This document shows, piece by piece, positions 291 to 25,310 of a DNA stretch of 25,322 bases (within the stretch, counting starts at the first letter, position 1; each line of letters starts with the position of its first letter). The DNA lies in IMG/VR virus record IMGVR_UViG_3300010885_040835, positions 1 through 25,322 of that record; one strand, given 5' to 3'. Both the position numbers and the translations under genes were made by a program. The DNA comes from a virus. A model generated the notes under the pieces. That model had not been told where the DNA came from, made no database searches, and saw nothing but the letters and a program-made list of their open reading frames with translations.

Positions 291-668
291 TAATGTATTC
301 GTACTTACATTTCGTGGTGTTAATATGACAGGTGGAGCTGGCAAATTTTGTGATTCAGGTAAATTAGAATTTTTAACTAATCTATTTTGATTATATAATT
401 GAGCTATATCTGGCAAAGAACCAGTCTTTTGATTTTGATTAGCTGCAGCAATTGCTTGGCGATTATTATCAAAAGATGGATTATTAGAAGGCCTTTTTTG
501 AGGTCGTACACCTTGAGTATCTCCTGTAAATTTTAAAGCATCATAAAATACACCGGTTATATTCTCAGGTGTAGCCTTTGTTTGTAGGCGAGCATCTGCC
601 TTGCGGGCTTTAGATGCATCCCGCGCAAAATTACGTATAGTCTCAGATTTTGATGGTAATTGCGCCAT
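1..668 (-). CDS. Partial Pro/Asn/Gln-rich repeat protein, likely virion-associated
   Basis: The ATG is at 668-666 and the frame stays open to the window edge, so the C-terminus is missing (222 codons seen). I do not recognise the family. The first 60 residues are basic and probably helical (start MAQLPSKSETIRNFARDASK), followed by an Asn/Gln-rich stretch. From about residue 115 there is a Pro-rich region with a 60-residue tandem repeat containing ITQVKPKPLPAPPALADLK and LVRQQINNQIIDP. A degenerate earlier copy of the LPAPP element lies near residues 109-113. The composition suggests an extended linker or a scaffold-like protein. Expression probably uses the TAAATA element 6 nt upstream. It is divergent from the gene at 731. 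Neighbouring tail genes suggest a structural role, but nothing in the sequence shows a biochemical function. Confidence 0.75.
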   Translation of the reverse strand, partial: MAQLPSKSETIRNFARDASKARKADARLQTKATPENITGVFYDALKFTGDTQGVRPQKRPSNNPSFDNNRQAIAAANQNQKTGSLPDIAQLYNQNRLVKNSNLPESQNLPAPPVILTPRNVSTNTLPAAPITQVKPKPLPAPPALADLKLVRQQINNQIIDPLNNALPKSIAPTNSSKPNNITNVLPEAPITQVKPKPLPAPPALADLKLVRQQINNQIIDP

Positions 669-674
669 TATTAA

Positions 675-681
675 TATTTAG
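675..681 (-). promoter_or_regulatory. Late-promoter-like element CTAAATA
   Basis: On the minus strand CTAAATA ends 6 nt before the ATG at 668. It matches the core of T4-family late promoters (TATAAATA; CTAAATA has been reported in cyanophages). No Shine-Dalgarno sequence is present. Confidence 0.5.
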
Positions 682-717
682 ATAATATATATGACATTGC
701 CAACTAATTGGTGTGCC

Positions 718-724
718 TTAAATA
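718..724 (+). promoter_or_regulatory. Late-promoter-like element TTAAATA
   Basis: TTAAATA ends 6 nt before the ATG at 731 on the plus strand. It faces away from the CTAAATA at 675-681, so this 62-bp intergenic region looks like a divergent late promoter pair. Confidence 0.5.
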
Positions 725-730
725 CTTTAT

Positions 731-1396
731 ATGTCAGATCCTATAAGCCAAGATATAGCCTATACAGATGCTTTAGTAGCTAATTCTCAATCATCATTTC
801 AGGTGTTATCAGCTAATGCACAGCGAGGTTTAGATTTAAAAACCGCATTATTAACCAATCCTGAATTTATCCGTAGTAAAAATTGGGTGGATACCTTTAT
901 ATGTGCTTATAGAGATTACAAACAAAGTCTAACTTCAAATACAGTATCTTTTACAGCTAATAGTAATTATAAGTTTTATGGAGATAATACTAAATACCAT
1001 GGCAATTTAAATAATTTTTGGATAGCTACTTCAGCAACTCAGTACGTTATCACAACCAATAGTTTTGCAGCTGGACAAAATATAACCTTGAGTGCTGGTA
1101 GCGCTTATTATAATTTGCCAAATCGAATAACATTTACACCACCGGTCACAACGGTTAGTACAGATACCTTATTTTTTCATGCTAATAGATTTGCATTTAT
1201 TTGTCAATATATTTGGTCTAACCCAAATGATGTAACTCAAACTAAACAAATATCGGCGATACCTTATACAAATATTTTCCCTATAAAAAATGGAATTGAT
1301 TTTAATGCTACTAGCTTATTAGCAGCTGCTACAGCTATGAAAACTGATTCTTCCTTTTATCTACAGAAGCAACAGTATCTTTCAACGCTTATATAA
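731..1396 (+). CDS. Hypothetical beta-rich protein, probable virion component
   Basis: This 221-residue protein is not recognised. It has no signal peptide or membrane segment. The N-terminal 70 residues look helical. The remainder is rich in Ser, Thr, Asn and aromatic residues in alternating patterns typical of beta-structured fibre or baseplate proteins. It contains ITLSAGSAYYNLPN, which resembles LSA-x-x-x-Y segments in the tail proteins at 3515-4426 and 4428-7379, so I infer it is also structural. It is one of three plus-strand genes among minus-strand tail genes. It has its own TAAATA element, and its last 15 bases overlap the end of the converging zinc-ribbon gene. Confidence 0.7.
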   Translation: MSDPISQDIAYTDALVANSQSSFQVLSANAQRGLDLKTALLTNPEFIRSKNWVDTFICAYRDYKQSLTSNTVSFTANSNYKFYGDNTKYHGNLNNFWIATSATQYVITTNSFAAGQNITLSAGSAYYNLPNRITFTPPVTTVSTDTLFFHANRFAFICQYIWSNPNDVTQTKQISAIPYTNIFPIKNGIDFNATSLLAAATAMKTDSSFYLQKQQYLSTLI

Positions 1397-1648
1397 ACCC
1401 TGTATGAATGTAGAATAACATTCATACTCTAAATGCTGCATTTTTTTGGCTACAATCTTTACAGCCCTACTGCTAGGATTAAAATTATAGGAGTGGCAGT
1501 ATGGACAAATGGTTATAGAATTAAAAGGTAGTATTTCATCACAACCATCACACACGCAGAAAAAATCATGGCAAATTTCTGCGAATTCTCCACGTTCTTT
1601 TTGAGAGACTGGAATTTCTTGACTCAATAGAGATTTTAAAAGATTCAC
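1382..1648 (-). CDS. Small zinc-ribbon protein
   Basis: This 88-residue protein carries a predicted zinc-binding knuckle pair, C33-x2-C36 (CDGC) and C48-x2-C51 (CPYC) separated by 11 residues, with further cysteines at 26 and 31. Such ribbons bind one zinc ion and serve in protein or nucleic-acid contacts; the partner here is unknown. The GTG start at 1648 overlaps the TGA stop of the preceding gene (GTGA), which implies translational coupling and supports this start. The 3' end overlaps the converging plus-strand gene by 15 bases. Its place at the end of the fibre gene run suggests late expression, perhaps as a tail assembly factor, but this is inference. Confidence 0.7.
   Translation of the reverse strand: MNLLKSLLSQEIPVSQKERGEFAEICHDFFCVCDGCDEILPFNSITICPYCHSYNFNPSSRAVKIVAKKMQHLEYECYSTFIQGLYKR
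1402..1447 (+). terminator. Possible terminator hairpin after the 731-1396 gene
   Basis: A perfect 10-bp stem (GTATGAATGT at 1402-1411 pairing with 1418-1427, loop AGAATA) starts 5 nt after the plus-strand stop codon. A second small hairpin (AAATG-CTG-CATTT) runs into a T-tract at 1441-1447. Both lie inside the C-terminal codons of the converging minus-strand gene. The T-tract does not follow the main stem directly, so Rho-independent function is uncertain. Confidence 0.4.
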
Positions 1649-1851
1649 TTAATAGGACGTTTTTTAAATTTTACCCTACGTTTTTTAAATCTCAATATTA
1701 AATTTTCTTGTTCTCCTGGAAAAGAAATGCCATTACTTCCCTTAAATCCTGCTGGTGTGGCTCCTCTAAAATTTATATCTTTTCCTGAATCAGCATATCT
1801 TGCTCTAGGAAAAACATTAAAGTCTTCTAAAAATGTTTTAAAGGATTTCAT
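1645..1851 (-). CDS. Small basic protein with capsid-targeting-like N-terminus
   Basis: This 68-residue protein is not recognised by family. It begins MKSFKTFLEDF, resembling the capsid-targeting leaders of T4 internal head proteins (of the type MKTYQEFIAEA), which direct proteins into the prohead and are cleaved by the gp21 protease. The middle is Gly/Pro-rich and the C-terminus strongly basic (LRFKKRRVKFKKRPIK), consistent with DNA contact. The ATG overlaps the upstream stop (ATATGA) and its own TGA overlaps the next start (GTGA), so three genes are translationally linked. An internal head protein and a small tail accessory protein are both possible. Confidence 0.65.
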   Translation of the reverse strand: MKSFKTFLEDFNVFPRARYADSGKDINFRGATPAGFKGSNGISFPGEQENLILRFKKRRVKFKKRPIK

Positions 1852-3511: not shown

Positions 3512-3517
3512 TATTTA
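3512..3517 (-). promoter_or_regulatory. TAAATA element before the tail fibre gene
   Basis: On the minus strand TAAATA ends 5 nt before the ATG at 3506. Its TAA is also the stop codon of the preceding gene (3515-3517), so one hexamer may serve both functions. Confidence 0.4.
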
Positions 3518-4426
3518 CTGATATGTTACAAAAATAAAGCTATCTGACGCACTGGGTGTATAATACATACTATAGCGTTGTGATGTACTAATATTGTCCG
3601 CTACATAGGGCGCCCCACTATTAGCATTATTTATAAGGATTAACGGCCCAATGCCACTAAAAGATCTATTTAAAGAATTAGGATACACATTGACTACCGA
3701 TAAAAGCTGGGTTTCTGTGAGAGTGGCTGGATTAGCTGACAACCCCAAATAATAGGCTCCAGAATATGTATATGATAGAGTTGTATCATATCCATTGATA
3801 TTCAAATTTTGTATGCTTATATGTGTAGCACTATTAGAAGCACAAAAAGCCCAATATAAGCGAACATAACTGGTAGTTTGATAATTACTATCAAGATGAT
3901 CTATTCTATTTATAAAATCTACATCATTAGATGATTTAGTAGATACTAAAATTCTAGATCCAAAGTCTGACAGACGAACCCGGACGCGCTTTGATTCCAC
4001 TGCTGTGATAGAGCTATATAGTAAAAACGGGTCTGCTATAGAGGTTAAATTTGGTGTTGTTACTAACAGAGGGTATTGATTAACTGCTGGGCCTCTAATC
4101 GAAATAGTATTGGGAGCTATAGCACTAAAGCCTACAGTACCCGTACCAGATGTAGAAAAATATCCACTAAAATCTAAGGCAACACCAAACTGAGCATCGA
4201 ATATACCAGAGGCTGAAAGTGTAATATCATCAGAATATCCCAAACCAGCACCAGCACTAGTACCATCCGGTGCAACGCGATAATACGGGAGAAAGCCAAA
4301 AACAATACCGCCATCTGGAGTTGTGTTTAAATCCCCGTATGCTGTATAGTCTAATGTCATTACAACATCTTTGCTTGTGTCAAAAATGTTATTATAAAAA
4401 ACTGCTAAATCTTTGTAACTTGACAT
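3515..4426 (-). CDS. Predicted L-type-lectin-fold tail protein
   Basis: This 303-residue protein has segments in the order expected of an L-type (legume/ConA-like) lectin sandwich: DGGIVFGF (38-45), a GAGLGY loop (59-64), the core strand FGVALDFSGYF (80-90, where lectins have VEFDT), RVRVRLSDFGSRILVST (about 147-163), and YVRLYWAFCASNSATHISI, matching the yvGFSASTG...HxI segment. The family binds glycans, often through a metal site; Asp85 could be the metal-ligand equivalent. Lying between two structural genes and the fibre, it is plausibly a carbohydrate-binding baseplate or fibre component. Lectin activity is inference, since metal and sugar residues are not clearly conserved. The gene abuts its neighbours within a few bases. 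Confidence 0.6.
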   Translation of the reverse strand: MSSYKDLAVFYNNIFDTSKDVVMTLDYTAYGDLNTTPDGGIVFGFLPYYRVAPDGTSAGAGLGYSDDITLSASGIFDAQFGVALDFSGYFSTSGTGTVGFSAIAPNTISIRGPAVNQYPLLVTTPNLTSIADPFLLYSSITAVESKRVRVRLSDFGSRILVSTKSSNDVDFINRIDHLDSNYQTTSYVRLYWAFCASNSATHISIQNLNINGYDTTLSYTYSGAYYLGLSANPATLTETQLLSVVNVYPNSLNRSFSGIGPLILINNANSGAPYVADNISTSQRYSMYYTPSASDSFIFVTYQ

Positions 4427-7386: not shown

Positions 7387-7392
7387 TATTTA
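7387..7392 (-). promoter_or_regulatory. Late-promoter-like element CTAAATA
   Basis: On the minus strand TAAATA (CTAAATA including base 7393) ends 7 nt before the ATG at 7379. Its TAA is the stop codon of the upstream gene. Confidence 0.4.
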
Positions 7393-10300
7393 GTTGTTGT
7401 AAACAATATCAACAGCACTAGTGAACAATCTTAATCCTTTACTCATTTCATAATTTAAGGCATTATCCATTATACCGTCTTGAGCTGCCCAGTCAGAATA
7501 TGAACTATTTGTTTGAAATAATGTACCAAGAGGGTCATCCCAATTAATAACAGAATCTATTGGATTACCTGCTATTGTTGAATTATATCTATAAAAATTG
7601 TAATAAAATCCTACATCTGTTCCTGTAATAGAAGGTAAAAGAACTAAAGGTAATCCCCAAGCTGACGTGTATAAAGCTAGGCTAAATTGTTGATTAGCAG
7701 AATAGGTAGATAATGCCGGCATTTTTACCTTCTTATATTGATTTGAAAATTTCTCATACACCACCAAGGTTTCACTTAAACTAAATACACCTGTATTGAT
7801 ATTGATAGGTGATCCTAAATTAGAAGGCGTCAAGCCGACTTCTGATGAAAATTCTGAATTATATTGATTGACACTACCATATAGTTTACTGTGCTTAATT
7901 GATAAAATGTCAATTATACGTCGTAGTTGTGGAGGGTATTCATAAATGACATTACTTAAACCGGTTCCTGTTTGTTCACTTAATGATATCAATGCCTCTA
8001 CGGTTGCGGTATCTACGTTAGAAGTATTATCTCCAAAGTTACCAATTCTTTCATATAAGGTTTTGCCTAATTCATATGGCTCTGAAGAAACTGAACCAAA
8101 AATAGAACCTAGAAAATCTTTAAATAATACATTTTGATTCACTAGATACTCGGGGAGTTTTAAAGTAGCTAGATATGCCGCCATGTCAAAATTTTCATTT
8201 TGTTTAGTTATGTTATAAACCCCTGTATCTGGATATATAGAAAAGGCATTGCTGATACCTGAAATAGATCGAACAGTAGCTGATACAGAAGCATATTTTG
8301 ATATCCATCGATAACCATTAAAATCATCCCCCGTATCAGTTATATAATTAGCTCCAAATAAACATTGAGATGATAATACTGGTTGTGCAGCATCTATTAT
8401 ATACAAGGAATTATCTGCTAAATTATATACTGTTAACTTATTATACGTATTACAATTTAACGCAAAAAGAGATTGGGTTAAATTATCAGGAAAGGCACTA
8501 CCAACTATATAGTTGGTTTTATTATAGGTATTAGCATCAATTCGTGTAAGTGTATTAATATTATGGGAGACCCAAATATTGCTATTTATATCATAGATTA
8601 TAGAAGTGGGATTAGTAAATCCACTAATCGTCTGTAATACTGTCCCTGTAGTAGATAATTTACATACCACATCTGCAGCTGAGGGAGCTATACCATCTGT
8701 AGATGATAAAGAATATAATTGATTACCAGCAAACATAACCATGCTATCACCTGCAAAAGTAACAAAGGGTTCTAGAAAAACATTAGAATAGTTAACATTA
8801 ATTCCTATGACCCAAGGATTATTGTTTCTATCTACTATAATTTTATCTGGTATAATATAGGAAGCTAATTGAGTGCTACAAGAATATGTTCCTGTTGAAT
8901 TATATTTTACTATATAATTGTATTGAGGATTCACATAAGATACCCACACATTATTTTGGTGGTCTGTTTCTACATATAAGGGAGCTATCAGATTAAGACT
9001 GGCAACTAAAGCCGATGTTTCTGCATTAACTGGATAATTTGTATTAGTCGGTAAATTGGGTGCGTACGCTTGAGATAATAATGTACCATCTGAATTTATT
9101 TTTATAGCAGATGAGGCTGTAAACAATGATATCCATGCATTATTAACCCCATCTAATGCTATAGAAGCGGGTCCAACAGACGTAACTATATTATTAACAG
9201 TGCTAAATATACTGAATTGATTAATAGTGTTGCCAGTATAATCTAATGTAAATACATTATCAGAGCTTAAAGCCCATATAAGATTTTGCTTATATCCAAT
9301 TGGAGAACTAGGAGCAACAGCAAATGTATTGCCTATTAAAGGACTTATTGTTTTTGGTGTTAATTGAAAAATGCGACTGGATGTATTGCCTTCAGAACTT
9401 ATAATATCTTGATCTGCAAACAACACTGTGCCTGAGACGTTAGAATATATTGAATTTACAGTATTTAATTTATAAAACTCAGGATCTTGAACAATAACAG
9501 CAGCCGATAAAAATGCTGTATTTAAAGCTGATGGGCTGATAAAATATCCTTTAAAATAACCTCCCACATTTGAAGGCAATGCATTTAAAAATTCCGTGTA
9601 AAAGGGCACATTTATGTTAGGACCAGAGGGAGACCCAGATAATAATGATATGGTTATATTATAAGCTGATGCTGTTGTACTTTGATTAGTTACGTTGGAA
9701 CTTAATAGTGGATAAAAAAGTGTTGAAAATCCCAAACCATCTTCCAATTTAATTACAAATGGTATAACTGTATTTTGCCAGCTAATTTGAGGTATTTGGA
9801 ATGTAGATAAAACTGCATCCCCTTGAGTATCTATACCATTAGTTGAAAAACTAATAGTAGTGGCAGGGTTATATCTACTATAGGCATATAGTACAGCTGG
9901 TTTTGTATTTAAATACCCTATAGATTGGGTGTTGTAGTCAAAGTAATTTATTTTATCTGTGTATGAATCATCTAGTCCAGCAGTATCCAGGCTGGCAAAT
10001 ATAATAAGAGGTGCTTCAATAGAGCTATAATTTTTAGGCTTATTACTTGTAAAGTAAGCATCAACCGTTCCTGTTGTACCTACAAAAAAGGAACCAGGTT
10101 GTGTAGATGGACATATATTAATTTGGTTATTTTCATCTATACTAGCATAGATTTTGTCCGTGCTGGTTAAAATGTTAGAAACCGGAACATATTCAAAAGT
10201 ATTACCCGCAATTTGTTTTTTATAAAAATAACATTGCTGTAATAGGTGAGACCATCCAAATGTGTTATATTTGGCTATATCCACTAAAGGATCTAAACTA

Positions 10301-10755
10301 CCAGAAACATACAAATTTGCTGTATATCCGGATCCACTTAAATTTGCGAATGTTTGCCAACTGTTGCTTCTATTTATTTGAAATGGTGTTATTTGTCCTG
10401 CGGGTATATCTAATGCTATCGTTGATTTCGTATCAATAGATAATTGATTGGATAAAAAATCTATAACAGACACCGATGGGCTGAAGGAACTTATATATGC
10501 ATCTCCATTAACATTATAAATAACTAAAGAAATATTGTAAACACCAGGCCAACTATAATAATGAACTGGCATAATATCCGTAGAGGTTGTACCATCACCA
10601 AAATTCCATAATACCTTTTTTGTGGAAATTTTGGTTTCATTACTAGATAATATTGGTGTAAATGTAAAAGGGCATTGCGGCAAAGCATAGCTAGACAAGG
10701 CAAATACACCCTGGAAATTCTCAGTAGTAAAATTTACAAATATGGTTTGGCTCAT
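7390..10755 (-). CDS. PKD/beta-propeller baseplate protein in the gp7 position
   Basis: This 1121-residue protein has three visible parts. Residues about 48-81 form a PKD core (LWNFGDGTTSTDIMPVHYYS followed by GVYNISLVIYN). Residues about 480-800 contain repeated propeller-like blades with an Asp...Asn-x-Trp signature: DGVNNAWISL, DHQNNVWVSY, DRNNNPWVIG and DINSNIWVSH, like NHL/Vgb-type propellers. The C-terminal quarter holds a helical segment with ERIGNFGDNTSNVDTATVEA (902-921) and a conserved-looking LRRIIDILSIKHSKLYGS. The start overlaps the gp6 stop (TAATG). In T4 gene 7 (1032 residues) directly follows gene 6, and gp7 joins gp6 in the wedge, so the C-terminal part may be the gp7 equivalent. 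PKD domain and propeller may bind surface polymers. Enzymatic activity is not indicated. Confidence 0.7.
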   Translation of the reverse strand: MSQTIFVNFTTENFQGVFALSSYALPQCPFTFTPILSSNETKISTKKVLWNFGDGTTSTDIMPVHYYSWPGVYNISLVIYNVNGDAYISSFSPSVSVIDFLSNQLSIDTKSTIALDIPAGQITPFQINRSNSWQTFANLSGSGYTANLYVSGSLDPLVDIAKYNTFGWSHLLQQCYFYKKQIAGNTFEYVPVSNILTSTDKIYASIDENNQINICPSTQPGSFFVGTTGTVDAYFTSNKPKNYSSIEAPLIIFASLDTAGLDDSYTDKINYFDYNTQSIGYLNTKPAVLYAYSRYNPATTISFSTNGIDTQGDAVLSTFQIPQISWQNTVIPFVIKLEDGLGFSTLFYPLLSSNVTNQSTTASAYNITISLLSGSPSGPNINVPFYTEFLNALPSNVGGYFKGYFISPSALNTAFLSAAVIVQDPEFYKLNTVNSIYSNVSGTVLFADQDIISSEGNTSSRIFQLTPKTISPLIGNTFAVAPSSPIGYKQNLIWALSSDNVFTLDYTGNTINQFSIFSTVNNIVTSVGPASIALDGVNNAWISLFTASSAIKINSDGTLLSQAYAPNLPTNTNYPVNAETSALVASLNLIAPLYVETDHQNNVWVSYVNPQYNYIVKYNSTGTYSCSTQLASYIIPDKIIVDRNNNPWVIGINVNYSNVFLEPFVTFAGDSMVMFAGNQLYSLSSTDGIAPSAADVVCKLSTTGTVLQTISGFTNPTSIIYDINSNIWVSHNINTLTRIDANTYNKTNYIVGSAFPDNLTQSLFALNCNTYNKLTVYNLADNSLYIIDAAQPVLSSQCLFGANYITDTGDDFNGYRWISKYASVSATVRSISGISNAFSIYPDTGVYNITKQNENFDMAAYLATLKLPEYLVNQNVLFKDFLGSIFGSVSSEPYELGKTLYERIGNFGDNTSNVDTATVEALISLSEQTGTGLSNVIYEYPPQLRRIIDILSIKHSKLYGSVNQYNSEFSSEVGLTPSNLGSPININTGVFSLSETLVVYEKFSNQYKKVKMPALSTYSANQQFSLALYTSAWGLPLVLLPSITGTDVGFYYNFYRYNSTIAGNPIDSVINWDDPLGTLFQTNSSYSDWAAQDGIMDNALNYEMSKGLRLFTSAVDIVYNN

Positions 10756-12587
10756 TATGTGGTAACAATACGAATTTTATTAACTATATCGGCAGAATTA
10801 TTTAAAATCGGAAATTTAAAATAAGGCAATTGTAAATTTTGTTGAAGAGTATTAATATCTGTTGTAGGATAGACAGGATTGTATATTAAAAAGCTAATGC
10901 CCGGCAATGTCTGTGTTACATTACTATTAGTTCTTGTGGTTCTAAAATCTATCACTCCTTGAATCTGTAATAGTTGTGTATTTAAAATACCCAAATCTAT
11001 TAATTTACCTAAATTATCCAATTGCACATCAAAATATGCCTGAAATATAGATGCAGCAGATTGCCGTATAGTATCAAAATTGCGACGTTGGTTGGTGTCG
11101 ACTATAATTTCAAAATAACTTTCATCAGCTATTGTGGGGGATAATTGTTCACCAGGAATCTTTACACCAAAATCAACAATTACATATACTGGATCATTAT
11201 ATACTATTTCACTAGTAACTACCTTAAATGGGTTTGCTTCATTTGATATTAATTGTTTTTGTGCTGAACTTAAATAGTTTAGCCGAGCGTTTAAACTAGT
11301 AGTCTTAGCTAATCGTGGAGCACAATAAACATATAAGTTATTAAAATTACAACTAGAACTAAATTTTACCTGATTTAACAAAATGCGAGATTCAATATTC
11401 GGTTTTTCTACACCTAAATCAAAAAAGTATTTTAAATGGCCTGATATATAATCCGCATTACTAATACACTTTACAGAGGCAAGTAAATTGCCAAATCTTT
11501 TTAAAATAAAAATTCTAAAATCTTCAGCTGTTACTAACCTGTATTGGGTTTTAAATGTATTAACAGCATTTGTTTTAATACTATCTACACTTTCTATATC
11601 TTGGAATTTAGTAGATGGGTTTGGATTATAAAAATATAAATTACTTGCGGTTGTAGCATCTAGTAGAATTAATCCAGTTGAAATAGTGTCACTGGTTATT
11701 TGTTTATATTGGGCTGAATTATAAAATAATAGAGACTTACCATCTAAAGCAGCTTCACTTACTTCCCCAGCTGTACTATCTGTCTGCAAATAATAAACCG
11801 CTACTGAATCATTAGCATGAAGTTGCTTGCCATGAATATCATCACCAAATTTTATTTCATATCGACCCATTTCATTAAGGCGTATTTCATATGCCTTGGT
11901 TGCACCATCACCTAAAAATAAAGAGTCAGTAGGACTGTAAAGTTCATACTTAGCATTGAGGACTGTGTTATCCTTTACATATACATCTATATTAAAATGA
12001 TCTATAGGTATATTATTTCCTTGTGAATCTGATAAAGATATAGAAAATTGTTCAAAGGGTTCTCCTGTAGCATTATATATCGGATATTCCCCATAAAGAC
12101 CTTGATAGAGCAAATTGCGATCGTATATTTCACTTAATAACTCTGCTCCACTAGTAGTCTTAGTAAACGTTATGTCTTGATTAAAAGAGTAATTTATACC
12201 ATCTAATATAAAATAAGAATAACGCGGAATTGTATACGTACCAGGTGTCATGGCATCAGAAGCCTGCGCTAAGAAAGAAAGTGTAGCAGTCTGATAACCA
12301 ATAGGATTATAATTTAGTATCTTTACAATTTTGTTTATATTCTCGTAAAGAGAAGCTTGACTATATAAACTTTCCGCACCTGTTTGGTTCAAATAAAATA
12401 ATAATACATGGTAAGAGTAAGCAACAATATCTATCACCGAATTTATATTACTTCCTGTATAATTTTGATCTGTAAATACACCCGATTGATTCAGTCGCTG
12501 TATAATGAGATTCTTTAAGCTGGTAGCATCAAATGCCGCATAGCTATTCGGAGGCAGTGTAAAATCATTGAATTGTGTATTTGCCAT
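10755..12587 (-). CDS. 6: Baseplate wedge protein gp6-like (baseplate J family)
   Basis: At 610 residues it is close to T4 gp6 (660). The N-terminal region has the family pattern: DATSLKNLIIQRLNQSGVF, then NYTGSNINSVIDIVAYSYH, then a segment with NQTGAESLYSQASLYENI (about residues 20-85). Later come GRYEIKFGDDIHGKQL (about 243-258) and YRLVTAEDFRIFILKRFGN, the segment seen in gpJ/gp6 proteins. In T4, gp6 dimers form the inner ring that holds the wedges around the hub and transmits sheath contraction. It directly follows gp25 (2-nt gap) and overlaps the next gene by TAATG. There is no Shine-Dalgarno sequence, so translation is probably coupled to gp25. Confidence 0.88.
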   Translation of the reverse strand: MANTQFNDFTLPPNSYAAFDATSLKNLIIQRLNQSGVFTDQNYTGSNINSVIDIVAYSYHVLLFYLNQTGAESLYSQASLYENINKIVKILNYNPIGYQTATLSFLAQASDAMTPGTYTIPRYSYFILDGINYSFNQDITFTKTTSGAELLSEIYDRNLLYQGLYGEYPIYNATGEPFEQFSISLSDSQGNNIPIDHFNIDVYVKDNTVLNAKYELYSPTDSLFLGDGATKAYEIRLNEMGRYEIKFGDDIHGKQLHANDSVAVYYLQTDSTAGEVSEAALDGKSLLFYNSAQYKQITSDTISTGLILLDATTASNLYFYNPNPSTKFQDIESVDSIKTNAVNTFKTQYRLVTAEDFRIFILKRFGNLLASVKCISNADYISGHLKYFFDLGVEKPNIESRILLNQVKFSSSCNFNNLYVYCAPRLAKTTSLNARLNYLSSAQKQLISNEANPFKVVTSEIVYNDPVYVIVDFGVKIPGEQLSPTIADESYFEIIVDTNQRRNFDTIRQSAASIFQAYFDVQLDNLGKLIDLGILNTQLLQIQGVIDFRTTRTNSNVTQTLPGISFLIYNPVYPTTDINTLQQNLQLPYFKFPILNNSADIVNKIRIVTT

Positions 12588-12589
12588 AA

Positions 12590-13069
12590 TTATTGTATAT
12601 AACGAAATCCAGAATTACTTAATAGGCCAGGGAGGGTTATTACACGATTTTGCAAAGCCTTGGCTGTAACTATCAAAGTAATTTCATATGTATTATTATC
12701 TTCATCGACCACGACAGTGATGCGATCCACTGAAATGCGAGGTTCATATTTCATAATACCTGATTTAATAGTGTCACCTATCATTATACCCCCTTCTTTG
12801 GAAACGGCTTCAAAAAGATAATTCTTAAGATTTAATCCAAAATCAGGGTTTAAAAGGCGTTCACCTTGATTAGTATTAAACAGATTAAATATGGAATTAC
12901 GTATAGCTGCATGGTCTACATCTGCTTTAAGATCTAAGATTTCATTGTTTTTATAGAATTCATTGCTATTACTATAGCCCATTTCGAGATCCAAGGCCAA
13001 ATCTTTAAAGATAAACTCATTATCTGTAAAAACTACATTGTTTAGGGAGGTAATTTTATAATTAGCCAT
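12590..13069 (-). CDS. 25: Baseplate wedge protein gp25-like
   Basis: This 159-residue protein of the gp25/gpW family (T4 gp25 has 132 residues) contains the core signature IRNSIFNLFNTNQGERLLNP (56-75), the segment DFGLNLKNYLFE, and the diagnostic EPR triplet at 109-111 (MKYEPRISVDRITV). The family links the sheath to the baseplate wedges and resembles a sheath protein domain; homologues also occur in type VI secretion (TssE). It starts the gp25-gp6-gp7-like operon. A TAAATA element lies 6 nt before the ATG, in a 48-bp region shared with the divergent gene at 13118. Confidence 0.92.
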   Translation of the reverse strand: MANYKITSLNNVVFTDNEFIFKDLALDLEMGYSNSNEFYKNNEILDLKADVDHAAIRNSIFNLFNTNQGERLLNPDFGLNLKNYLFEAVSKEGGIMIGDTIKSGIMKYEPRISVDRITVVVDEDNNTYEITLIVTAKALQNRVITLPGLLSNSGFRYIQ

Positions 13070-13075: not shown

Positions 13076-13082
13076 TATTTAT
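13076..13082 (-). promoter_or_regulatory. Late-promoter-like element ATAAATA for the gp25 operon
   Basis: On the minus strand ATAAATA ends 6 nt before the gp25 ATG. No same-strand gene lies just upstream, so the motif cannot be a by-product of a stop codon. Confidence 0.6.
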
Positions 13083-13105: not shown

Positions 13106-13112
13106 ATAAATA
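13106..13112 (+). promoter_or_regulatory. Late-promoter-like element ATAAATA for the 13118 gene
   Basis: ATAAATA ends 5 nt before the GTG at 13118. It lies 23 bp from the opposing ATAAATA of gp25, a compact divergent pair. Confidence 0.55.
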
Positions 13113-13117: not shown

Positions 13118-13768
13118 GTGAACAGACGCTTTGTTAAATTATTTGAATCTGCCTATGGTAGATATACTAATGGGGGCATATTGGTTGGGGATGTCGTTGC
13201 ATTCAAACCTAAAGCCATAAACCACCCTGATTTTGAGAGCAACGACGAATTAAAGATAAAAATTAAGTCCTTAATAGATAGCGGGTATAATCTACGGGTT
13301 GTCAATATTAAAAACAATTTTCCTGTTGGCATGGGTGGCAACAATGACAATAACATAAATCGGCGCATGGCTTTGGCTGATATTGCGCAAGAAATAGCCC
13401 CGGGTCGCTATTATAATTATGTAACAGTACCACTGGATGTCCTGGTAGTAGTTTCTGGTATCCGTCCTTTAAAGGATCAAAATCCTGATCATTTTAATGA
13501 AGTACAGCCGGATATCAATCTTCCAGAAGTGAGGGATAAAATTAAAAGAGACTCACGCATTAACATTAAACCTGTATCTCCAGAGAAGGTCAGTGAAGAT
13601 GAAGAGTTCTCAACCGGTAGACAGACCCGAACCTCTGATATGGGTAACAAGAAAGATAGCTCGGGTGATAGGTCTCTGAATAATTCTAACACTGTTATTC
13701 CAAGTTCCCCTAACGTAACACACAAAGATCCAGCTAACTATACAGCAGACTATCTTCCTAAGAAGTAA
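13118..13768 (+). CDS. Hypothetical protein with ordered N-terminal half and polar tail
   Basis: This 216-residue protein starts with GTG. I recognise no domain of known function. The start (MNRRFVKLFESAYGRYTNGG followed by ILVGDVVAFK) resembles N-termini of several T4-like phage hypothetical proteins that combine a short FxxLFE helix with a G-x-GD-V-V-F strand. Residues 1-125 look folded. Residues about 130-216 are polar and probably disordered, rich in Ser, Asn, Asp and Lys. By eye its G+C is somewhat higher than its neighbours'. It runs opposite to the tail genes, and its last 11 bases overlap the end of the converging clamp-loader gene. A virion or assembly role is a guess from context. 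Confidence 0.7.
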   Translation: MNRRFVKLFESAYGRYTNGGILVGDVVAFKPKAINHPDFESNDELKIKIKSLIDSGYNLRVVNIKNNFPVGMGGNNDNNINRRMALADIAQEIAPGRYYNYVTVPLDVLVVVSGIRPLKDQNPDHFNEVQPDINLPEVRDKIKRDSRINIKPVSPEKVSEDEEFSTGRQTRTSDMGNKKDSSGDRSLNNSNTVIPSSPNVTHKDPANYTADYLPKK

Positions 13769-14675
13769 GCTGTATACAACAAGCATAAGCATTAATTTCT
13801 TGGTCTGCTACAAATGCTGCTCTATAGATATGCTCAGCTATAACTAATAGAGACATCTTCTTTACTTGTTCATTCTTTTCATTTTTATCAATATAATTGA
13901 AAAGCATTCTTAATAGATTGACAAAATCTGAATTAATCTGACTTTCATTAGATATGATATACTTTCGAGCTTCGGTTACTTTTTTAGCAACAATTAATTC
14001 ATACAAGCCGGCAATGAATTGATTATTATTATTATCTACAGCAATATTCATGGTTCCACTAATACTATATCTTTGTATGTTATTAATACATTTACGAATA
14101 TCTGGATAATTTGATTTAATTAGGTGAGCAAATGCAACTTTTTGATCATCCGGCAATATAATTTTTTCCGTCTTTATAACATGTAAACACCGACGCAACA
14201 CCAAGTCCAAAGGAGGATTTAAATCAAATGATTGACACCTACTACGCAGTGCATCAATTAACTTGTATTGATAATTACCTGTAAGAATAAACCGTGTAAC
14301 ACCACTATATTCCTCCATAGTATTGCGTAATGCTCGTTGAGCTTCACCCGATAATGCATCTGCTTCATCTAGAATGATTACTTTAATTTTACCATCTATA
14401 CTCTTGGTTTGAGCAAAACTAACTACTTTGTTGCGGATTGTATCAATACCGTTCTCATCACTAGCATTAATGTAAAGGTACTGACATTGTAGGATGTCTT
14501 TAACTAAGATCTTCGCTAGACTCGTCTTGCCAATGCCAGGGTTGCCTAAAAAGATTAAACTCGGAATTTCCTGTTTATCCTTAAAAGATAATAAGGTCTT
14601 TCTAACATCCTCAGATAATACAATATCATCCAATGTGTGGGGTCTATATTTTTCAATTAAAAGGTTATTAAACAT
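13758..14675 (-). CDS. 44: Clamp-loader AAA+ ATPase subunit (T4 gp44-like)
   Basis: This 305-residue protein (T4 gp44 has 319) opens with LIEKYRPHTLDDIVL, typical of RFC/gp44 subunits. It then has Walker A GNPGIGKT (44-51), Walker B VIILDEAD (99-106), a sensor-1 segment TGNYQ (132-136) and the SRC arginine-finger motif RSRC (144-147). This class uses ATP to load the sliding clamp onto primed DNA for the phage polymerase. I chose the ATG at 14675 over an in-frame TTG at 14681 because it overlaps the preceding stop. The small loader subunit (gp62) and clamp (gp45), next to gp44 in T4, are not in the window. The stop is TAG, overlapping the converging gene. Confidence 0.93.
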   Translation of the reverse strand: MFNNLLIEKYRPHTLDDIVLSEDVRKTLLSFKDKQEIPSLIFLGNPGIGKTSLAKILVKDILQCQYLYINASDENGIDTIRNKVVSFAQTKSIDGKIKVIILDEADALSGEAQRALRNTMEEYSGVTRFILTGNYQYKLIDALRSRCQSFDLNPPLDLVLRRCLHVIKTEKIILPDDQKVAFAHLIKSNYPDIRKCINNIQRYSISGTMNIAVDNNNNQFIAGLYELIVAKKVTEARKYIISNESQINSDFVNLLRMLFNYIDKNEKNEQVKKMSLLVIAEHIYRAAFVADQEINAYACCIQLTS

Positions 14676-14865
14676 TATCAATTATGTTGTTAGAATTTTT
14701 CCGTCGAGAATTAAATGGTACAAGTAATTTGACTTTCTTAACATTCTTAATCCTATCCATTTTATAGGAATCATAAAGAACTTCCACATTTATAAAATTA
14801 ATAGGCTTACTGCATGTAATAAGACATTGAGTGCCATCTTTACTTTGTTTAATATTCCATCGCAT
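14668..14865 (-). CDS. Hypothetical 65-residue protein between dut and clamp loader
   Basis: I recognise no family. The ATG at 14865 immediately follows the dUTPase stop (TAATATG), and the stop lies inside the start of the clamp-loader gene, so the three are translationally linked. An in-frame GTG at 14898 would extend it into dut, which seems less likely. It appears to form a short beta-rich unit (MRWNIKQSKDGTQCLITC) with a basic, Asn-rich tail. It is too short for, and not visibly like, gp62. An accessory role in replication or nucleotide metabolism is inference from position only. Confidence 0.6.
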   Translation of the reverse strand: MRWNIKQSKDGTQCLITCSKPINFINVEVLYDSYKMDRIKNVKKVKLLVPFNSRRKNSNNIIDNV

Positions 14866-14866: not shown

Positions 14867-15295
14867 TTATTTTCCAGATGAACCAAAACCCTTATCACCC
14901 CTATTAGAGGCTTGTGGTGTATTACCCCATTCCAATTCTAGAGATAGATTGAGATAGAAAACAAATTGAGCACAACGATCACCCTTTTTAAAATTATAAT
15001 CTACATCTGAAAAATTATAAATCTTAACACCACAATCTCCACGGTATTCATTATCAATAATGCCTGGATGAGGCAGTAGGCTGTGTTTAAAACCTAAACC
15101 AGAACGACCTTCTACCTTAAACCAATACCCTTCAGGGATAAACCCCACTTTAATACCGACAGGAACTACACCACTACCTTTAGCTGGGATAGTAATATCT
15201 TCTACAGCATACACATCAAAACCTGTATCTGAAGCATGATTTTTAGATGGTAAAATAGCATCGGGGTGACTTTTAATGAATTGAACTTTTGGCAT
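14867..15295 (-). CDS. dut: dUTP diphosphatase (trimeric dUTPase)
   Basis: The enzyme hydrolyses dUTP to dUMP and diphosphate, keeping uracil out of DNA and supplying the dTMP precursor. All five trimeric-dUTPase motifs are present: I SDTGFDVYA (22-30), II GRSGLG (63-68), III GIIDNEYRGD (78-87, with catalytic Asp81 and Tyr84), IV GDRCAQFVF (105-113) and V NRGDKGFGSSG (131-141), the last being the mobile arm that closes over the substrate. The ATG at 15295 gives 142 residues, the normal family length. Upstream alternatives are ATG 15313 and TTG 15349. It leads a three-gene replication block, and a sigma70-like promoter rather than a TAAATA element lies in front of it. Confidence 0.95.
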   Translation of the reverse strand: MPKVQFIKSHPDAILPSKNHASDTGFDVYAVEDITIPAKGSGVVPVGIKVGFIPEGYWFKVEGRSGLGFKHSLLPHPGIIDNEYRGDCGVKIYNFSDVDYNFKKGDRCAQFVFYLNLSLELEWGNTPQASNRGDKGFGSSGK

Positions 15296-15321
15296 GTAAT
15301 TTATATCTTCCATATAAATAC

Positions 15322-15349
15322 AATATAACTCATATTGGCTTTTAATCAA
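15322..15349 (-). promoter_or_regulatory. Sigma70-like promoter candidate for dut block
   Basis: On the minus strand there is TTGATT (15349-15344), a 16-nt spacer and TATATT (15327-15322). Transcription would start near 15315, giving a leader of about 20 nt to the ATG at 15295. It is a good but not perfect match in AT-rich DNA, so chance is possible. Confidence 0.4.
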
Positions 15350-15356: not shown

Positions 15357-15363
15357 TTAAATA
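15357..15363 (+). promoter_or_regulatory. Late-promoter-like element TTAAATA
   Basis: TTAAATA ends 5 nt before the ATG at 15369 on the plus strand and is divergent from the dut promoter candidate. Confidence 0.5.
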
Positions 15364-15368: not shown

Positions 15369-15839
15369 ATGGATAATACCTCAAATACAGAAGATAAAGA
15401 AATTGGTACACTAATAGATCAATTGCAAAACAATACATTTTCAGCTAAAAAAGCAGCAATAGAACCAGACCCTCTTAAAAAGGAAGAAATAGAAACCTTT
15501 GTCATACAACGAGCTGGAGAATTAGTAAGAGAAAGTTTAGAGTTTATGAAGTCTATGAAAGAATATGTATCTTCAGCTCCTAATGGTGAAGATATGTCTG
15601 CTGTAGCAAATTTAATAACAGCTACCTCCAGTGCATTAGAGACTTTGAATAAATTAGTAATTACTGATAAAAAAGCTGAAACCGTTGTTAAAATAAAGGA
15701 AATGGATATACAGAGTAAAAAAGAAATTGCTAATGAAGATAATACTAATAGATATCAATTAACCCGTGAAGAGATATTTAAACGATTGATATCAACCTCT
15801 ATACCAGTGTCTGCAGATGTTATAGATATAACACCTTAA
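15369..15839 (+). CDS. Possible terminase small subunit (T4 gp16-like)
   Basis: This 156-residue, highly charged, helical protein has a polar N-terminus (1-40), two long helices around residues 41-68 and 76-99 joined by a SSAPNGED turn, and then a Lys-rich coiled segment (101-145). The helix pair, with RAGELVRESLEFM (48-60) and VANLITATSSALETLNKL (79-96), resembles the core of T4-type small terminase subunits, whose central helices form the ring that recognises DNA for packaging. The match is by pattern, not by a diagnostic motif. The large subunit (gp17) is not nearby in the window. A scaffold or DNA-binding accessory protein is an alternative. Its stop shares the palindrome TTAA with the stop of the converging gene. 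Confidence 0.4.
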   Translation: MDNTSNTEDKEIGTLIDQLQNNTFSAKKAAIEPDPLKKEEIETFVIQRAGELVRESLEFMKSMKEYVSSAPNGEDMSAVANLITATSSALETLNKLVITDKKAETVVKIKEMDIQSKKEIANEDNTNRYQLTREEIFKRLISTSIPVSADVIDITP

Positions 15840-20616: not shown

Positions 20617-20622
20617 TATTTA
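20617..20622 (-). promoter_or_regulatory. TAAATA element before the gp48-like gene
   Basis: On the minus strand TAAATA ends 5 nt before the ATG at 20611; its TAA is the stop codon of the tape measure gene. Confidence 0.4.
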
Positions 20623-22671
20623 CGTAGTAGCTACTGTGGTCCTGAACGCAGATGCCCTAGATCCTTCTCCTGGAGTAAAAGTGGTATTACGTGGTTGGTT
20701 TAGTACGATATTGTTATTATCTCTTGTATCAGCTTCACTTATTAATTTGGCAATAGATGATAATAAAGTATTAGCACTTACAGCGGCATTTACCTGGTTA
20801 TCTATACTACCCTTGATAGATTTTAATACAGCTACTACATCTTCTTTAGGTGTATTTGTAGGTGCTCCGCCAACTGCTGGTGCGGTTTTACTGGTTTGTG
20901 TTACGGATGTTGCTACCTTTATAGTCTCTACGGGTAATTGATTTATTGCATTTGCAACCTCTTTAAGATTAGTGCCTATAGCTTTTCCTAAACCATCAGC
21001 ACCTAAGGCTTTTAAAGATTCGGCTAATAATTTGATAGCGTTGGCAGTTTCTGTCAATCCATCTTTTAATTCTACAAATCGTTGTAATTGCTTTACAGGA
21101 TCTGCAGAAAATAGACTTAAAAAACCTTTTACTAGACCACCACCACCCAAAGCAGCTAAAGCTAAAGCTACAGCAGTAATACCACCTGCAACAAGTCCTA
21201 AATCCGTTGCAGATACACTAGCTAGATCTTTAACTGACTGAACTACCGATTGAATAAAGGTAGAAATCTTACCGGGCATGGTTTCAAAGAAATTAGTAAT
21301 ATCCTTTAAAACTGTCTGTATAGTAGATAAAGCATTTTCCATGAGTGTAAATCCTTTATCTATTAATAATTTTATTGTACCTATTACACCAGATATTGCT
21401 CTATCAAACAATTGTATAACAGGCACTACTATATTTTGTATGGTAGTACTTAAAGAAATTATAACATCCGCAACACTTTGTATTATTTTTTGTAACCCGT
21501 GAAAGGCTTGTGTTAAAATATTTTCTATATTATTACCCAATGCTATAATCATAGTGGCTAAACTTTCTATTATTTTTTGTAAATTCTCAAATAATGAAAT
21601 TAGTGCATCTCGTAAACCTAAAATTAATGGATTTAATCCTTTATCTATCAGAATGATAAGAGCATCTTTCAATGCAGTAATGCCTATTGTTAAATATTGT
21701 AACCACTTAGAAGCTAGATCCTTAATTAAATCTATGATGGGTGCCAAAAATTCCTTGATAATAGGTAACTTATCTATTAGATATTTTGCAAAATCTATAA
21801 TTTCATGAATTGTTGTTTTAGCAAATTCTATTAATGTATCAAAAAATGGTTTGATGGCCGCTAATATGGGTGGAATCTGAGCTAGTAAGGAGGGTATAGT
21901 TTTAATGAAATCAGAAATAATTTGCTGTATCATTTGCGTGATCGGTTTTAAAATTTCTGATACACCACCTGCAATTGCTTTTACAATTGCAGGAATTTGT
22001 TTCATTATATCTCCGATACCTGCTAACACACTTTGTATAGCTATGCCAACACCCTTAATAATATTAGGTAAAGCATCTAAGACATGCTTTAATACATTAA
22101 TATAAAAGTCTGTAATGGTATGGATAAATTTTAAAAATCCTTCTCCGCCTAAAATATCATTTATGAATTGTGCAAATGCTGGCAATAAATCCTTTATAAA
22201 TTTACTAAATTCTGGTAGAGCATTTTTTATAAATTCATAAATCTGAGGTAAAGCTGGGGCTATAATTTTTATAGCACCTGCTATGCCAAGAGCGGTCAAA
22301 GCAATACCACCACCGATACCAAGGGCTAATAAAGCTGCATAAGGACCACCAGATTTAGCAGCAGTACCAAAAGCAGTACCGACGAAATCTCCAATAGCCC
22401 CACCAGCCTGCTTTAAAAGACCACCAGATTTATCCTCTTCTTTAGATTCCTTTTCTCTTTTTTTACCGCCAGTTCCATTGAGAGCATCAGCTAGTTTTTC
22501 TAAAGCAACATCCTTTATATCATCTATACGGACTTTAACTAAATCCTTAGTTGTTTTTTTCTTGTCCTTCTTATCAGTTTGTTCGCCTAGAAAAATAGCA
22601 TCTAAATTCTCACGCATGAGAGTTAGCTGTTCTAGTATACCCGTTAATTGAGGGTTTATAGGGTCTGCCAC
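20620..22671 (-). CDS. Tail tape measure protein
   Basis: This 683-residue, almost entirely helical protein has a charged N-terminus (30-80, Lys/Glu/Asp-rich), a Gly/Ala-rich hydrophobic segment at about 109-140, long amphipathic heptad-like repeats through about 480, and a second hydrophobic segment at about 489-516 (AGGITAVALALAALGGGG). This architecture is typical of tape measure proteins, which set tail length and are thought to enter the host membrane. At about 0.15 nm per residue of helix the tail would be near 100 nm, close to T4 (gp29, 590 residues). Near-repeats LQKIIESLATMIIALGNNIE and LQKIIQSVADVIISLSTTIQ lie 29 residues apart. The start is GTG, 5 nt after TAAATA. It follows the gp26/51-like genes, as in T4. 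Confidence 0.85.
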   Translation of the reverse strand: MADPINPQLTGILEQLTLMRENLDAIFLGEQTDKKDKKKTTKDLVKVRIDDIKDVALEKLADALNGTGGKKREKESKEEDKSGGLLKQAGGAIGDFVGTAFGTAAKSGGPYAALLALGIGGGIALTALGIAGAIKIIAPALPQIYEFIKNALPEFSKFIKDLLPAFAQFINDILGGEGFLKFIHTITDFYINVLKHVLDALPNIIKGVGIAIQSVLAGIGDIMKQIPAIVKAIAGGVSEILKPITQMIQQIISDFIKTIPSLLAQIPPILAAIKPFFDTLIEFAKTTIHEIIDFAKYLIDKLPIIKEFLAPIIDLIKDLASKWLQYLTIGITALKDALIILIDKGLNPLILGLRDALISLFENLQKIIESLATMIIALGNNIENILTQAFHGLQKIIQSVADVIISLSTTIQNIVVPVIQLFDRAISGVIGTIKLLIDKGFTLMENALSTIQTVLKDITNFFETMPGKISTFIQSVVQSVKDLASVSATDLGLVAGGITAVALALAALGGGGLVKGFLSLFSADPVKQLQRFVELKDGLTETANAIKLLAESLKALGADGLGKAIGTNLKEVANAINQLPVETIKVATSVTQTSKTAPAVGGAPTNTPKEDVVAVLKSIKGSIDNQVNAAVSANTLLSSIAKLISEADTRDNNNIVLNQPRNTTFTPGEGSRASAFRTTVATT

Positions 22672-22676: not shown

Positions 22677-22682
22677 TATTTA
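22677..22682 (-). promoter_or_regulatory. TAAATA element before the tape measure gene
   Basis: On the minus strand TAAATA ends 5 nt before the GTG at 22671 and lies downstream of the previous stop codon (22687-22689), so it is not a stop-codon by-product. The exact position supports the GTG start. Confidence 0.5.
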
Positions 22683-23469: not shown

Positions 23470-23475
23470 ATAATA

Positions 23476-23481
23476 TACTTA
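23476..23481 (-). promoter_or_regulatory. Variant late-promoter-like element TAAGTA
   Basis: On the minus strand TAAGTA (CTAAGTA with the preceding base) ends 6 nt before the ATG at 23469, after the upstream stop codon. Confidence 0.4.
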
Positions 23482-23485
23482 GAGT

Positions 23486-24349
23486 TTACTTTAAAGAGTC
23501 AACCACGGAACTCATTGGGTTTTTAGGTGTTTTTGTGGCTTCCTGTAATTCCTTATTATCCTGACCCAAGCGGCTATAGAAGATTTGCATTTCCGCTGGG
23601 TTTAATAACATAATATCAGACCAAGAAAAATTAGCCTTAGATATTAGGGTGTAGGCTATGTCATATATTGACTTTAAATCATCTGATAAGAGTATTTTTA
23701 ATAGTTGTATTAGAGATTCATCATTGAGAGACAACCTGACATTATCTTCTGTGGTTTTAAATAAAATTATCTGTTGTGCTTCTTGATCTAATTTTAAGAT
23801 AGCTGATTGCATAGGCTTTAAAATTTCCGATGGTAAATGATCTGCAATGTGTTCTTTTTCTTCCAATGAAAGACTAGCAAAATCTACTCTTCCAGCTTCA
23901 CTGGTTGTTATATGTGTTAAACAATTTAAAAATGGATCTATGCCTTCTATATGAAAATTCTTAGGATATCCAATTTCTATTTCCAATTCATTAGTCTTTA
24001 TAATTTTAGGAGGAGAAAGTTGTACAGATAAAAGAACCGAAACTATATCATCTATAGAAACCTTTATGCGTTTATTACTACTGGTTAATAATAGATAAAT
24101 ATCAGATCCTAAAATTATAGAACGCAGAGTAAGAAGCGCCGTGAATTTATCAATTACATTAAGCTTAGAATAATCATTTAAAATTAATTTTTCTAAGAGA
24201 TAACTAACATAATAATCAATATGCTTAGAATTATTATTCTTTAAAAACTTTAATAATGAAATATACTCACCCACTGTCATCTCTCTAATTGATATCGGAT
24301 TTTTTAACGACAATACAGGACAAGAAAAAAAGAATTCTCCTTTATACAT
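23486..24349 (-). CDS. Baseplate hub assembly protein, gp26/gp51-like
   Basis: This 287-residue cytoplasmic, helical protein contains MTVGEYISLLKFLKNN (24-39) and LNVIDKFTALLTLRSIILGS (63-82), the pattern of T4 gp26/gp51-type baseplate proteins in which a conserved D-x-x-x-x-L-x-x-R-x-x-x-x-G segment follows a helical bundle. The equivalent segment in the next gene (77-96) suggests an old duplication. The C-terminal half (160-287) is helical and charged and may be a separate domain. The ATG at 24349 lies 23 nt after the previous stop, with neither a Shine-Dalgarno nor a TAAATA sequence. Function is inferred from pattern and gene order. Confidence 0.55.
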   Translation of the reverse strand: MYKGEFFFSCPVLSLKNPISIREMTVGEYISLLKFLKNNNSKHIDYYVSYLLEKLILNDYSKLNVIDKFTALLTLRSIILGSDIYLLLTSSNKRIKVSIDDIVSVLLSVQLSPPKIIKTNELEIEIGYPKNFHIEGIDPFLNCLTHITTSEAGRVDFASLSLEEKEHIADHLPSEILKPMQSAILKLDQEAQQIILFKTTEDNVRLSLNDESLIQLLKILLSDDLKSIYDIAYTLISKANFSWSDIMLLNPAEMQIFYSRLGQDNKELQEATKTPKNPMSSVVDSLK

Positions 24350-24372
24350 ACTAATAAAGTATAATGGTAATT

Positions 24373-25278
24373 TTAGAAAAAGCTACCAGGTACAAAGTTC
24401 TTAATGCCTTGTAGAGATGTAGTAACCTGTGGGAAGGATCCGGTAGAAATGCGATTAATAATTGATGTAAGTGGAAAATATAAATTATTTTCTACAGTAT
24501 AATGAGAGTATACCCATTTTGTAGATATGGTAGTTGGAGTAGTTCCTGCAGCATAATCCACAGACCCGCCTTCTATTAAAACGGGCGCACAATTATAAAA
24601 TGTCCATATTTTTCTAGGAATCATAGATATGTTTTGAACCGTGCGAGTATATTGCAAAACAGAAACGGTTGTCTTTACATTTTTTATTGATTCTATTTTA
24701 TCTGTTGGGTTTCTGCTAACAAAACCAAAATGTGAACCAGCTATAATCCAAGGTCTAATAACAAAATCAGGAAAAGATGTGTTTGTTTCTAAAAAGTCAA
24801 TTGACAATTGTGACTGATTTTCTCTTTCCCGAGATATAAGACCGGGTAAAAATCCACGATGATTTTCTATGTTTAGATATTCGGTTGAAAATGATTCTTG
24901 AGGTAATGATACCCCTTGACTAAAAATACAGCCAGTTATTTTTTGTAATGGAAATGATAATAAAATATTTTTAGCTTTATCTACATCAAATCCTTTTCTG
25001 GAAGCATCTGTTCTTTCCAACCCTTGTATTATTTTTGTGCTAATACATGAGGGGTATTGGTTTATAAGAACAATCCATTGACTGTTAATAGGAATAGCCG
25101 TAAACCACGATTCCATTTGTGTTAAGAAATGATCCCTAGCGCTTATGAGAGGAATACCAGGAATATTAAATCCAAATAATTGAGATACTTGCGGAGCAAA
25201 TAAAGAATTTTGCCCTGTTTTGATACCCGCAAAATTTTGCGCTATAGATGAAAAGGCACTAGTAATTGGGTTGTTCAT
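24373..25278 (-). CDS. Tail-tube-fold protein, gp54/gp48-like baseplate tube initiator
   Basis: This 301-residue protein contains GCIFSQGVSLPQESFSTEY (115-133), FLPGLISRERENQSQLSIDF (143-162) and FLETNTSFPDFVIRPWIIAG (162-181). This series of strands with a vIRPW motif is seen in T4-like phage tail-tube-related proteins. At 301 residues it is nearer gp54 (320 in T4) than the main tube protein gp19 (163). gp54 caps the baseplate hub and starts tube growth. It is the first gene of the visible minus-strand tail operon, preceded by a TAAGTA element and two palindromes. It could alternatively be a minor tube paralogue. Confidence 0.55.
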   Translation of the reverse strand: MNNPITSAFSSIAQNFAGIKTGQNSLFAPQVSQLFGFNIPGIPLISARDHFLTQMESWFTAIPINSQWIVLINQYPSCISTKIIQGLERTDASRKGFDVDKAKNILLSFPLQKITGCIFSQGVSLPQESFSTEYLNIENHRGFLPGLISRERENQSQLSIDFLETNTSFPDFVIRPWIIAGSHFGFVSRNPTDKIESIKNVKTTVSVLQYTRTVQNISMIPRKIWTFYNCAPVLIEGGSVDYAAGTTPTTISTKWVYSHYTVENNLYFPLTSIINRISTGSFPQVTTSLQGIKNFVPGSFF

Positions 25279-25280
25279 TA

Positions 25281-25310
25281 ATAATACTTAACCCTTAGGG
25301 TTAATGTCAA
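25281..25310 (-). promoter_or_regulatory. Promoter candidate before the first tail gene
   Basis: Two readings overlap. On the minus strand TAAGTA (25290-25285) ends 6 nt before the ATG, matching the late-element spacing seen elsewhere. TTGACA (25310-25305), an 18-nt spacer and TATTAT (25286-25281) would make a strong sigma70-like match, but its start point would fall inside the coding sequence. The spacer is filled by a palindrome, which suggests regulation by a DNA-binding protein. Confidence 0.4.

Follow-up and report, generated by a model that had tools for sequence, protein, structure and literature searches.

Late transcription of phage T4 is a textbook system, in which the late mRNAs have leaders that contain a ribosome-binding site. 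The textbook case of a phage leaderless mRNA is lambda cI, and Thermus phage P23-45 is a possible further phage with leaderless mRNAs. The T4 late box occupies positions -13 to -6 relative to the transcription start site, and its positions -13 and -12 are variable in several T4-like phages and in Aeh1 (CTAAATA) (PMC1524935). Among phage leaderless mRNAs lambda cI is mentioned by name (PMC9031893). Bacterial leaderless genes, found in Actinobacteria and Deinococcus-Thermus, are preceded, at about 10-12 bp from the start codon, by a TA-like signal (PMC3160421). Here we analyzed a 25,322-base viral fragment (IMG/VR record IMGVR_UViG_3300010885_040835; hereafter the window), which carries part of the tail/baseplate module of a T4-related phage. 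The element under study is the hexamer TAAATA, which stands a few nucleotides (nt) before start codons on both strands. Judged from sequence comparison, this hexamer and its variants TAAGTA and TAATTA are very probably T4-type late promoters that have merged with the start codons and would give rise to leaderless or near-leaderless late mRNAs.

The original prediction had listed nine TAAATA and two TAAGTA boxes, and every start and every gap (the number of nt between the last base of the motif and the start codon) was confirmed on both strands. On the minus strand TAAATA is located at 675..680 (gap 6, start 668), 3512..3517 (gap 5, start 3506), 7387..7392 (gap 7, start 7379), 13076..13081 (gap 6, start 13069 of the baseplate wedge gene gp25), 20617..20622 (gap 5, start 20611) and 22677..22682 (gap 5, GTG start 22671 of a tape-measure-like gene). 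The plus strand has boxes at 719..724 (gap 6, start 731), 13107..13112 (gap 5, GTG start 13118) and 15358..15363 (gap 5, start 15369). The variant TAAGTA precedes start 23469 (23476..23481, minus strand, gap 6), where TTGACT is also present at leaderless -35 spacing, and start 25278 (25285..25290, minus strand, gap 6). The motif was found in 13/19 deduplicated orthologues of the gene starting at 15369, and in 14/24, 9/25, 5/9 and 4/5 orthologues of the genes starting at 7379, 13118, 20611 and 25278, respectively; several candidate starts per gene were allowed in these last four counts, and small positive values may be due to chance.

With 67% A+T in the window, an accidental origin of the pattern had to be considered, as had the possibility that TAA stop codons and reinitiation generate it as a side effect. 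Only 0.07 boxes are expected in a 3-position window at 23 starts, compared to the 9 that were seen (Poisson P ~1e-16), in agreement with the earlier estimate of far less than one. None of the 452 internal ATGs had TAAATA at gaps 5-7, while this was the case for 9 of the 23 starts (Fisher P 3e-13); an equal frequency of the hexamer elsewhere and inside genes, which had been named as a finding that would speak against the proposal, is thereby excluded. In the window as a whole the hexamer is even depleted (53 copies versus 83 expected from shuffled sequences). As noted before, TAA doubles as the stop codon of the upstream gene in three of the nine cases, namely for the genes at 3515-4426, 7390-10755 and 20620-22671. 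Clade-wide, this applies to just 28/161 boxes (17%), which is too few for the stop codon to account for the motif. At the divergent pairs 668/731 and 13069/13118 boxes are present although an upstream stop does not exist. Together with the control words and the recurrence in many lineages described below, these results refute chance or stop codons as the origin of the boxes, and we consider the probability of such an origin to be negligible.

The 23 starts of the window fall into nine with TAAATA, two with TAAGTA, two with sigma-70-like elements and ten that overlap or abut the preceding stop. Thus, 11 of the 13 uncoupled starts have late boxes. None of the ten overlapping or abutting starts had TAAATA or TAAGTA at 5-7 nt; start 17368 has TAATTA. 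It had been stated that nearly all remaining genes overlap or abut the preceding stop, with exceptions at 24349 and dut, and this holds; both exceptions carry the sigma-70-like elements.

The motif survey was extended to 80 uncultured relatives with 38-46% identity to the window in gp6, eight large records (61-226 kb) being examined whole; genes were called as simple longest-ATG frames. When the first ATG of each open frame was considered (756 starts), TAAATA was found 77 times at gap 5 and 39 times at gap 6. The histogram was otherwise almost flat, apart from a shoulder reaching to a gap of about 12 and a cliff at gap 4. The peak persisted after collapse to 43 lineages (32 at gap 5, 25 at gap 6), a deduplication that corrects only partially for shared ancestry. 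In the large records 59 boxes were counted at gap 5, against 5 at gap 4. A test independent of gene calls gave the same picture, with TAAATA-N5-ATG occurring 86 times, TAAATA-N6-ATG 80 times and other spacings about 28 times. The permuted hexamer AATAAA and the control word TAAATA-N-AGT showed no peak at 5-6 nt. Near clade starts TAAATA was enriched (171 versus 8.6), as was TAAGTA (68 versus 3.8). The profile of TAAGTA matched that of TAAATA, TAATTA behaved likewise but more weakly, and TAACTA did not show such a spacing profile in the clade. The aligned late boxes had no conserved -35 element, and information content was near zero upstream of -16.

The original prediction had recognized the late promoter core of the T4 family in these boxes. 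The hexamer itself is exact at nine sites, but the full octamer TATAAATA is present at none of the starts. Its eight exact copies in the window are all located away from listed starts, and the octamer was rejected as the motif. Bases -13 and -12 are not conserved at the boxes of the window, while A at -12 reaches 62% in the pooled relatives; these positions are thus variable in the clade, as they are in several T4-like phages.

A nearly fixed distance to start codons and the lack of Shine-Dalgarno sequences would also be compatible with a role in translation initiation, an alternative that the original prediction had mentioned, for example as an A/U-rich contact for S1 or the 30S subunit that replaces the Shine-Dalgarno sequence. 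We therefore compared late and early genes, which were labeled by homology to T4 and HTVC008M proteins; the motif scan at this labeling step also allowed several candidate starts per gene, and small positive counts from it may be due to chance. The starts were then divided by whether an upstream gene ends adjacent to them (coupled) or not. The box was present in 46/62 uncoupled late genes and 0/30 uncoupled early genes (P 1e-12), and in 1/21 coupled late and 0/27 coupled early genes. A translation element is disfavored because the motif is missing from the early genes that are uncoupled in these genomes, where TTGAC/TATAAT takes its place at the spacing of a promoter. The late gene gp25 (12590..13069, minus strand; PHROG 261/43) has a TAANTA box at gap 4-12 in 40/41 lineages; the proteins align at Met1, and the upstream DNA has diverged apart from the box. 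The motif was found in 1/27 lineages for the early gene gp44 (clamp loader; 13758..14681, minus strand; PHROG 168) and in 0/12 for the early dUTPase gene (14867..15313, minus strand; PHROG 135), neither of which has a late box in the window. The late baseplate wedge gene gp6 (10755..12587, minus strand; PHROG 219) is coupled to gp25 and has no box in the window. In relatives gp6 carries the box in 10/10 cases without an abutting upstream gene, a pattern that would suit a translation element as well. The box was also seen in several cases with a gap of 11-16 nt to gp25, and since it occurs at such intra-operon distances, the gp6 comparison alone cannot separate a promoter from a translation element. 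The split between early and late genes does separate them. Moreover, sequence and placement (-11 to -6) fit the known T4 late box (PMC1524935), and the pyrimidine/purine pair described below persists in genes whose start codon lies 10-14 nt from the box. We regard a translation element as an unlikely explanation.

The early genes seem to follow a similar plan. In the clade TTGAC peaked 29-30 nt before ATG (35 hits versus about 1 per position), the gap of TTGACA peaked at 28-29, and TATAAT was located 6-8 nt before the start codon in the same genomes. With this spacing of TTGACA and TATAAT the +1 of a sigma-70 promoter would fall on the start codon, for example in uvsX, primase, gp46 and gp32. 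The original prediction is in this respect incomplete, as the early sigma-70-type promoters of the clade, as far as their predicted positions tell, share the leaderless placement. In the window, the dUTPase gene is preceded by a sigma-70-like -10 element (TATATT, 15322..15327, minus strand) with gap 8 to its likely ATG at 15313 and by a -35-like element (TTGATT, 15344..15349, minus strand) 16 nt before the -10 element. Most likely, ATG 15313 is the start of dUTPase and the listed TTG at 15349 belongs to the -35-like element. A possible, weak -10 element (TATACT, 24358..24363, minus strand) has gap 8 to start 24349; a good -35 element was not seen there. The Bacteroidota-type promoter TAnnTTTG had been considered in view of the missing Shine-Dalgarno sequences. 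The early promoters resemble TTGACA/TATAAT; TAnnTTTG itself was not counted. One large relative (G005, L092-L103) has five near-identical copies of TTGACA-cctcctcctaaagcatatagaataagatt-ATG at early-type starts, which look like a family of repeated genes with leaderless promoters. The window (25285-25322, minus strand) contains the palindrome AACCCTAAGGGTT twice, with TTGACA in between, immediately before the TAAGTA box that belongs to gene 25278. This arrangement is possibly an operator or a dual early/late promoter.

Since the T4 box extends from -13 to -6, a gap of 5 would put +1 on the A of the ATG. By this geometry, we infer that +1 coincides with the start codon or precedes it by no more than about 7 nt. 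The bases following the box agree with a start six nt past it: genes with gaps of 10-14, in which the start codon does not constrain these bases, have a pyrimidine at box+5 in 78% and a purine at box+6 in 72%, which resembles the usual initiator pair at -1/+1. In gap-5 genes a pyrimidine is present at box+5 in 88%, and box+6 is the A of ATG. A cliff at gap 4 would be expected if transcription starting within the codon is not tolerated. Shine-Dalgarno sequences had been described as essentially absent. This was true for the relatives, where only 3/193 genes with a box at gap 5-12 had an SD-like sequence, always a 4-mer and never longer; it needs correction for the window, which has one Shine-Dalgarno sequence (GGAGG) before 19289. 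In T4, which served as a control, a distance of 26-28 nt separates the box of late genes from the start, and a Shine-Dalgarno sequence was found in 11/12 genes with a box 13-40 nt upstream. For most late first genes of the clade the leader would thus measure between 0 and about 7 nt.

The boxes could also be late promoters whose transcripts start elsewhere, upstream or downstream, or are processed, which would result in an ordinary leader or in internal start codons. Some boxes are indeed 7-12 nt away from the start codon, and the distance between a -10-type element and +1 can vary. Such transcripts are hard to reconcile with the sudden disappearance of boxes once the gap is 4 or less, with gp25 N-termini that align at the box-proximal Met, with 190/193 genes that have no Shine-Dalgarno sequence between box and start, and with the T4 geometry, which leaves no room for a leader. 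Ordinary leaders are therefore improbable.

The late machinery of T4 comprises gp55, gp33 and gp45, and a search for these proteins had been proposed. Two of them were found in relatives, the third was not. gp55 (phrog_234) was detected in 7/30 relatives, including most of the largest records (E 1e-16 to 1e-32), and the sliding clamp gp45 was found by an iterated profile in 6/6 gp55-bearing records that were examined. The clade gp55 retains a sigma-region-2-like core. In the closest relative by gp6 (IMGVR_UViG_3300013131_000036; L107:6026-7567, minus strand), gp55 is interrupted by an in-frame, intein-like insert with a LAGLIDADG domain; it measures about 340 amino acids and separates NFINY from SYRDEM within the conserved core.

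The original proposal of T4-type late promoters that place +1 on or beside the start codon and give rise to leaderless or near-leaderless late mRNAs is supported by the spacing cliff, the restriction to late genes, the conservation across lineages, the initiator signature, gp55 and gp45 in relatives, the lack of Shine-Dalgarno sequences and the T4 control. We consider the leaderless step to be strongly indicated by these sequence features; from them we infer recognition of the box by gp55, the precise 5' ends and the route of translation. Host RNA polymerase equipped with gp55, the late sigma factor of the phage, would recognize the TAAATA core, and the placement of the box would let transcription begin with the first base of the start codon or at most about 7 nt earlier. 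The mRNA of each late unit would then have no leader or almost none, and its first gene would be translated probably by 70S initiation on the 5'-terminal AUG; downstream genes, which overlap or abut the preceding stop, would be translated by coupling. The layout of early units may be the same, with +1 of their sigma-70-type promoters (TTGACA-N16-17-TATAAT) falling on the start codon.

Several observations weigh against this interpretation. Gaps of 7-12 would leave a leader of 2-7 nt, which makes these mRNAs near-leaderless. The 25-kb window itself does not contain gp55. gp33 (phrog_254) was found in 0/11 records, although this protein is small and divergent and could have been missed. The clade gp55 does not have the hydrophobic C-terminal clamp-binding tail (LDFLYE/LEYFM) seen in T4 and HTVC008M. 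Finally, 16/62 uncoupled late genes have no motif, the major capsid gene being among them in 4/6 records, and in three of these four records the capsid gene has an SD-like sequence instead. The tail-less gp55 was seen in records G005, G014, G015, G004, G016 and G017 (e.g., L118:4669-5271), in which gp45 is present nonetheless. Because of the missing tail and the undetected gp33, the late activation step may differ from that in T4. The major capsid genes of G005, G016 and G015 have SD-like AGGAG/AAGGA, unlike most late genes, and no late box within 160 nt upstream. The SD-like sequence and the lack of a leaderless box in these three large records imply that leadered translation is also available in the clade. 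Ribosomal protein S21 and IF3, phage translation factors possibly favoring leaderless mRNA, were absent from 16 records.

A more far-reaching scenario, which we regard as possible but rather less than even in probability, is that the whole uncultured T4-related clade has moved gp55 late promoters and sigma-70 early promoters onto the start codons, with nearly all units being leaderless. The major capsid gene would be a leadered exception with a Shine-Dalgarno sequence in some members, late transcription would have lost gp33 and the C-terminal clamp tether of gp55, and the layout would mirror a preference of the host ribosomes for leaderless messages.

Besides gp25, gp6, gp44 and dUTPase, the window encodes the tape-measure-like tail protein (late; 20620..22671, minus strand, GTG start 22671; PHROG 1272 and others) and a T4-type baseplate hub protein (late; 23486..24349, minus strand; PF12322, PHROG 150). 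The 1121-amino-acid protein of the baseplate region encoded at 7390-10755 (minus strand) carries a PKD domain. Positions 1-123 and 181-303 form a 123-nt direct repeat with 93% identity and a spacing of 180, which lies within the first gene and represents a repeated protein segment. No cultured phage record was close, the best identities being about 28% in gp6, 37% in gp44 and 33% in gp23. A host search with gp6 against 84,980 bacterial and archaeal genomes gave zero relatives.

The clade shares with T4 late promoters (Straboviridae, Kyanoviridae) the TAAATA core, the lack of a -35 element, the restriction to late genes, the occurrence on both strands and homologues of gp55 and gp45. It differs in that the box is located at 5-6 nt from the start, whereas in T4 the Shine-Dalgarno sequence stands between box and start codon. 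Five other T4-like phages (S-SM1, HTVC008M, C48C1, BUCT-ZZ01 and RM378) showed no peak at 5-6 nt. Bacterial leaderless genes have, like the clade, a -10-type element that places +1 at the start codon and no Shine-Dalgarno sequence; they use the host sigma-70, whereas the late genes of the clade would use the box of a phage sigma factor for the structural-gene program. Phage leaderless mRNAs like that of lambda cI have a 5'-terminal AUG and no leader, as predicted for the clade, but such cases are single regulatory genes, while in the clade most transcription units of a T4-related genome appear to be concerned. In the literature searched, from which most subscription journals were missing, we came across no description of leaderless late mRNAs for T4-like phages. 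On the sequence evidence, the locus is best read as a known kind of promoter system in a new arrangement, with late boxes fused to start codons throughout the clade.

For gene finding in these genomes a simple rule follows, according to which TAANTA precedes the true start by 5-12 nt, or TTGACA precedes it by about 29 nt. The clamp dependence of a gp55 that lacks its C-terminal tail becomes directly testable. If the interpretation is true, the host is predicted to translate leaderless mRNA well, and a large and environmentally common T4 relative would manage without leaders, which would mean that the layout of promoter and start codon of one sigma-factor system can be rewired.

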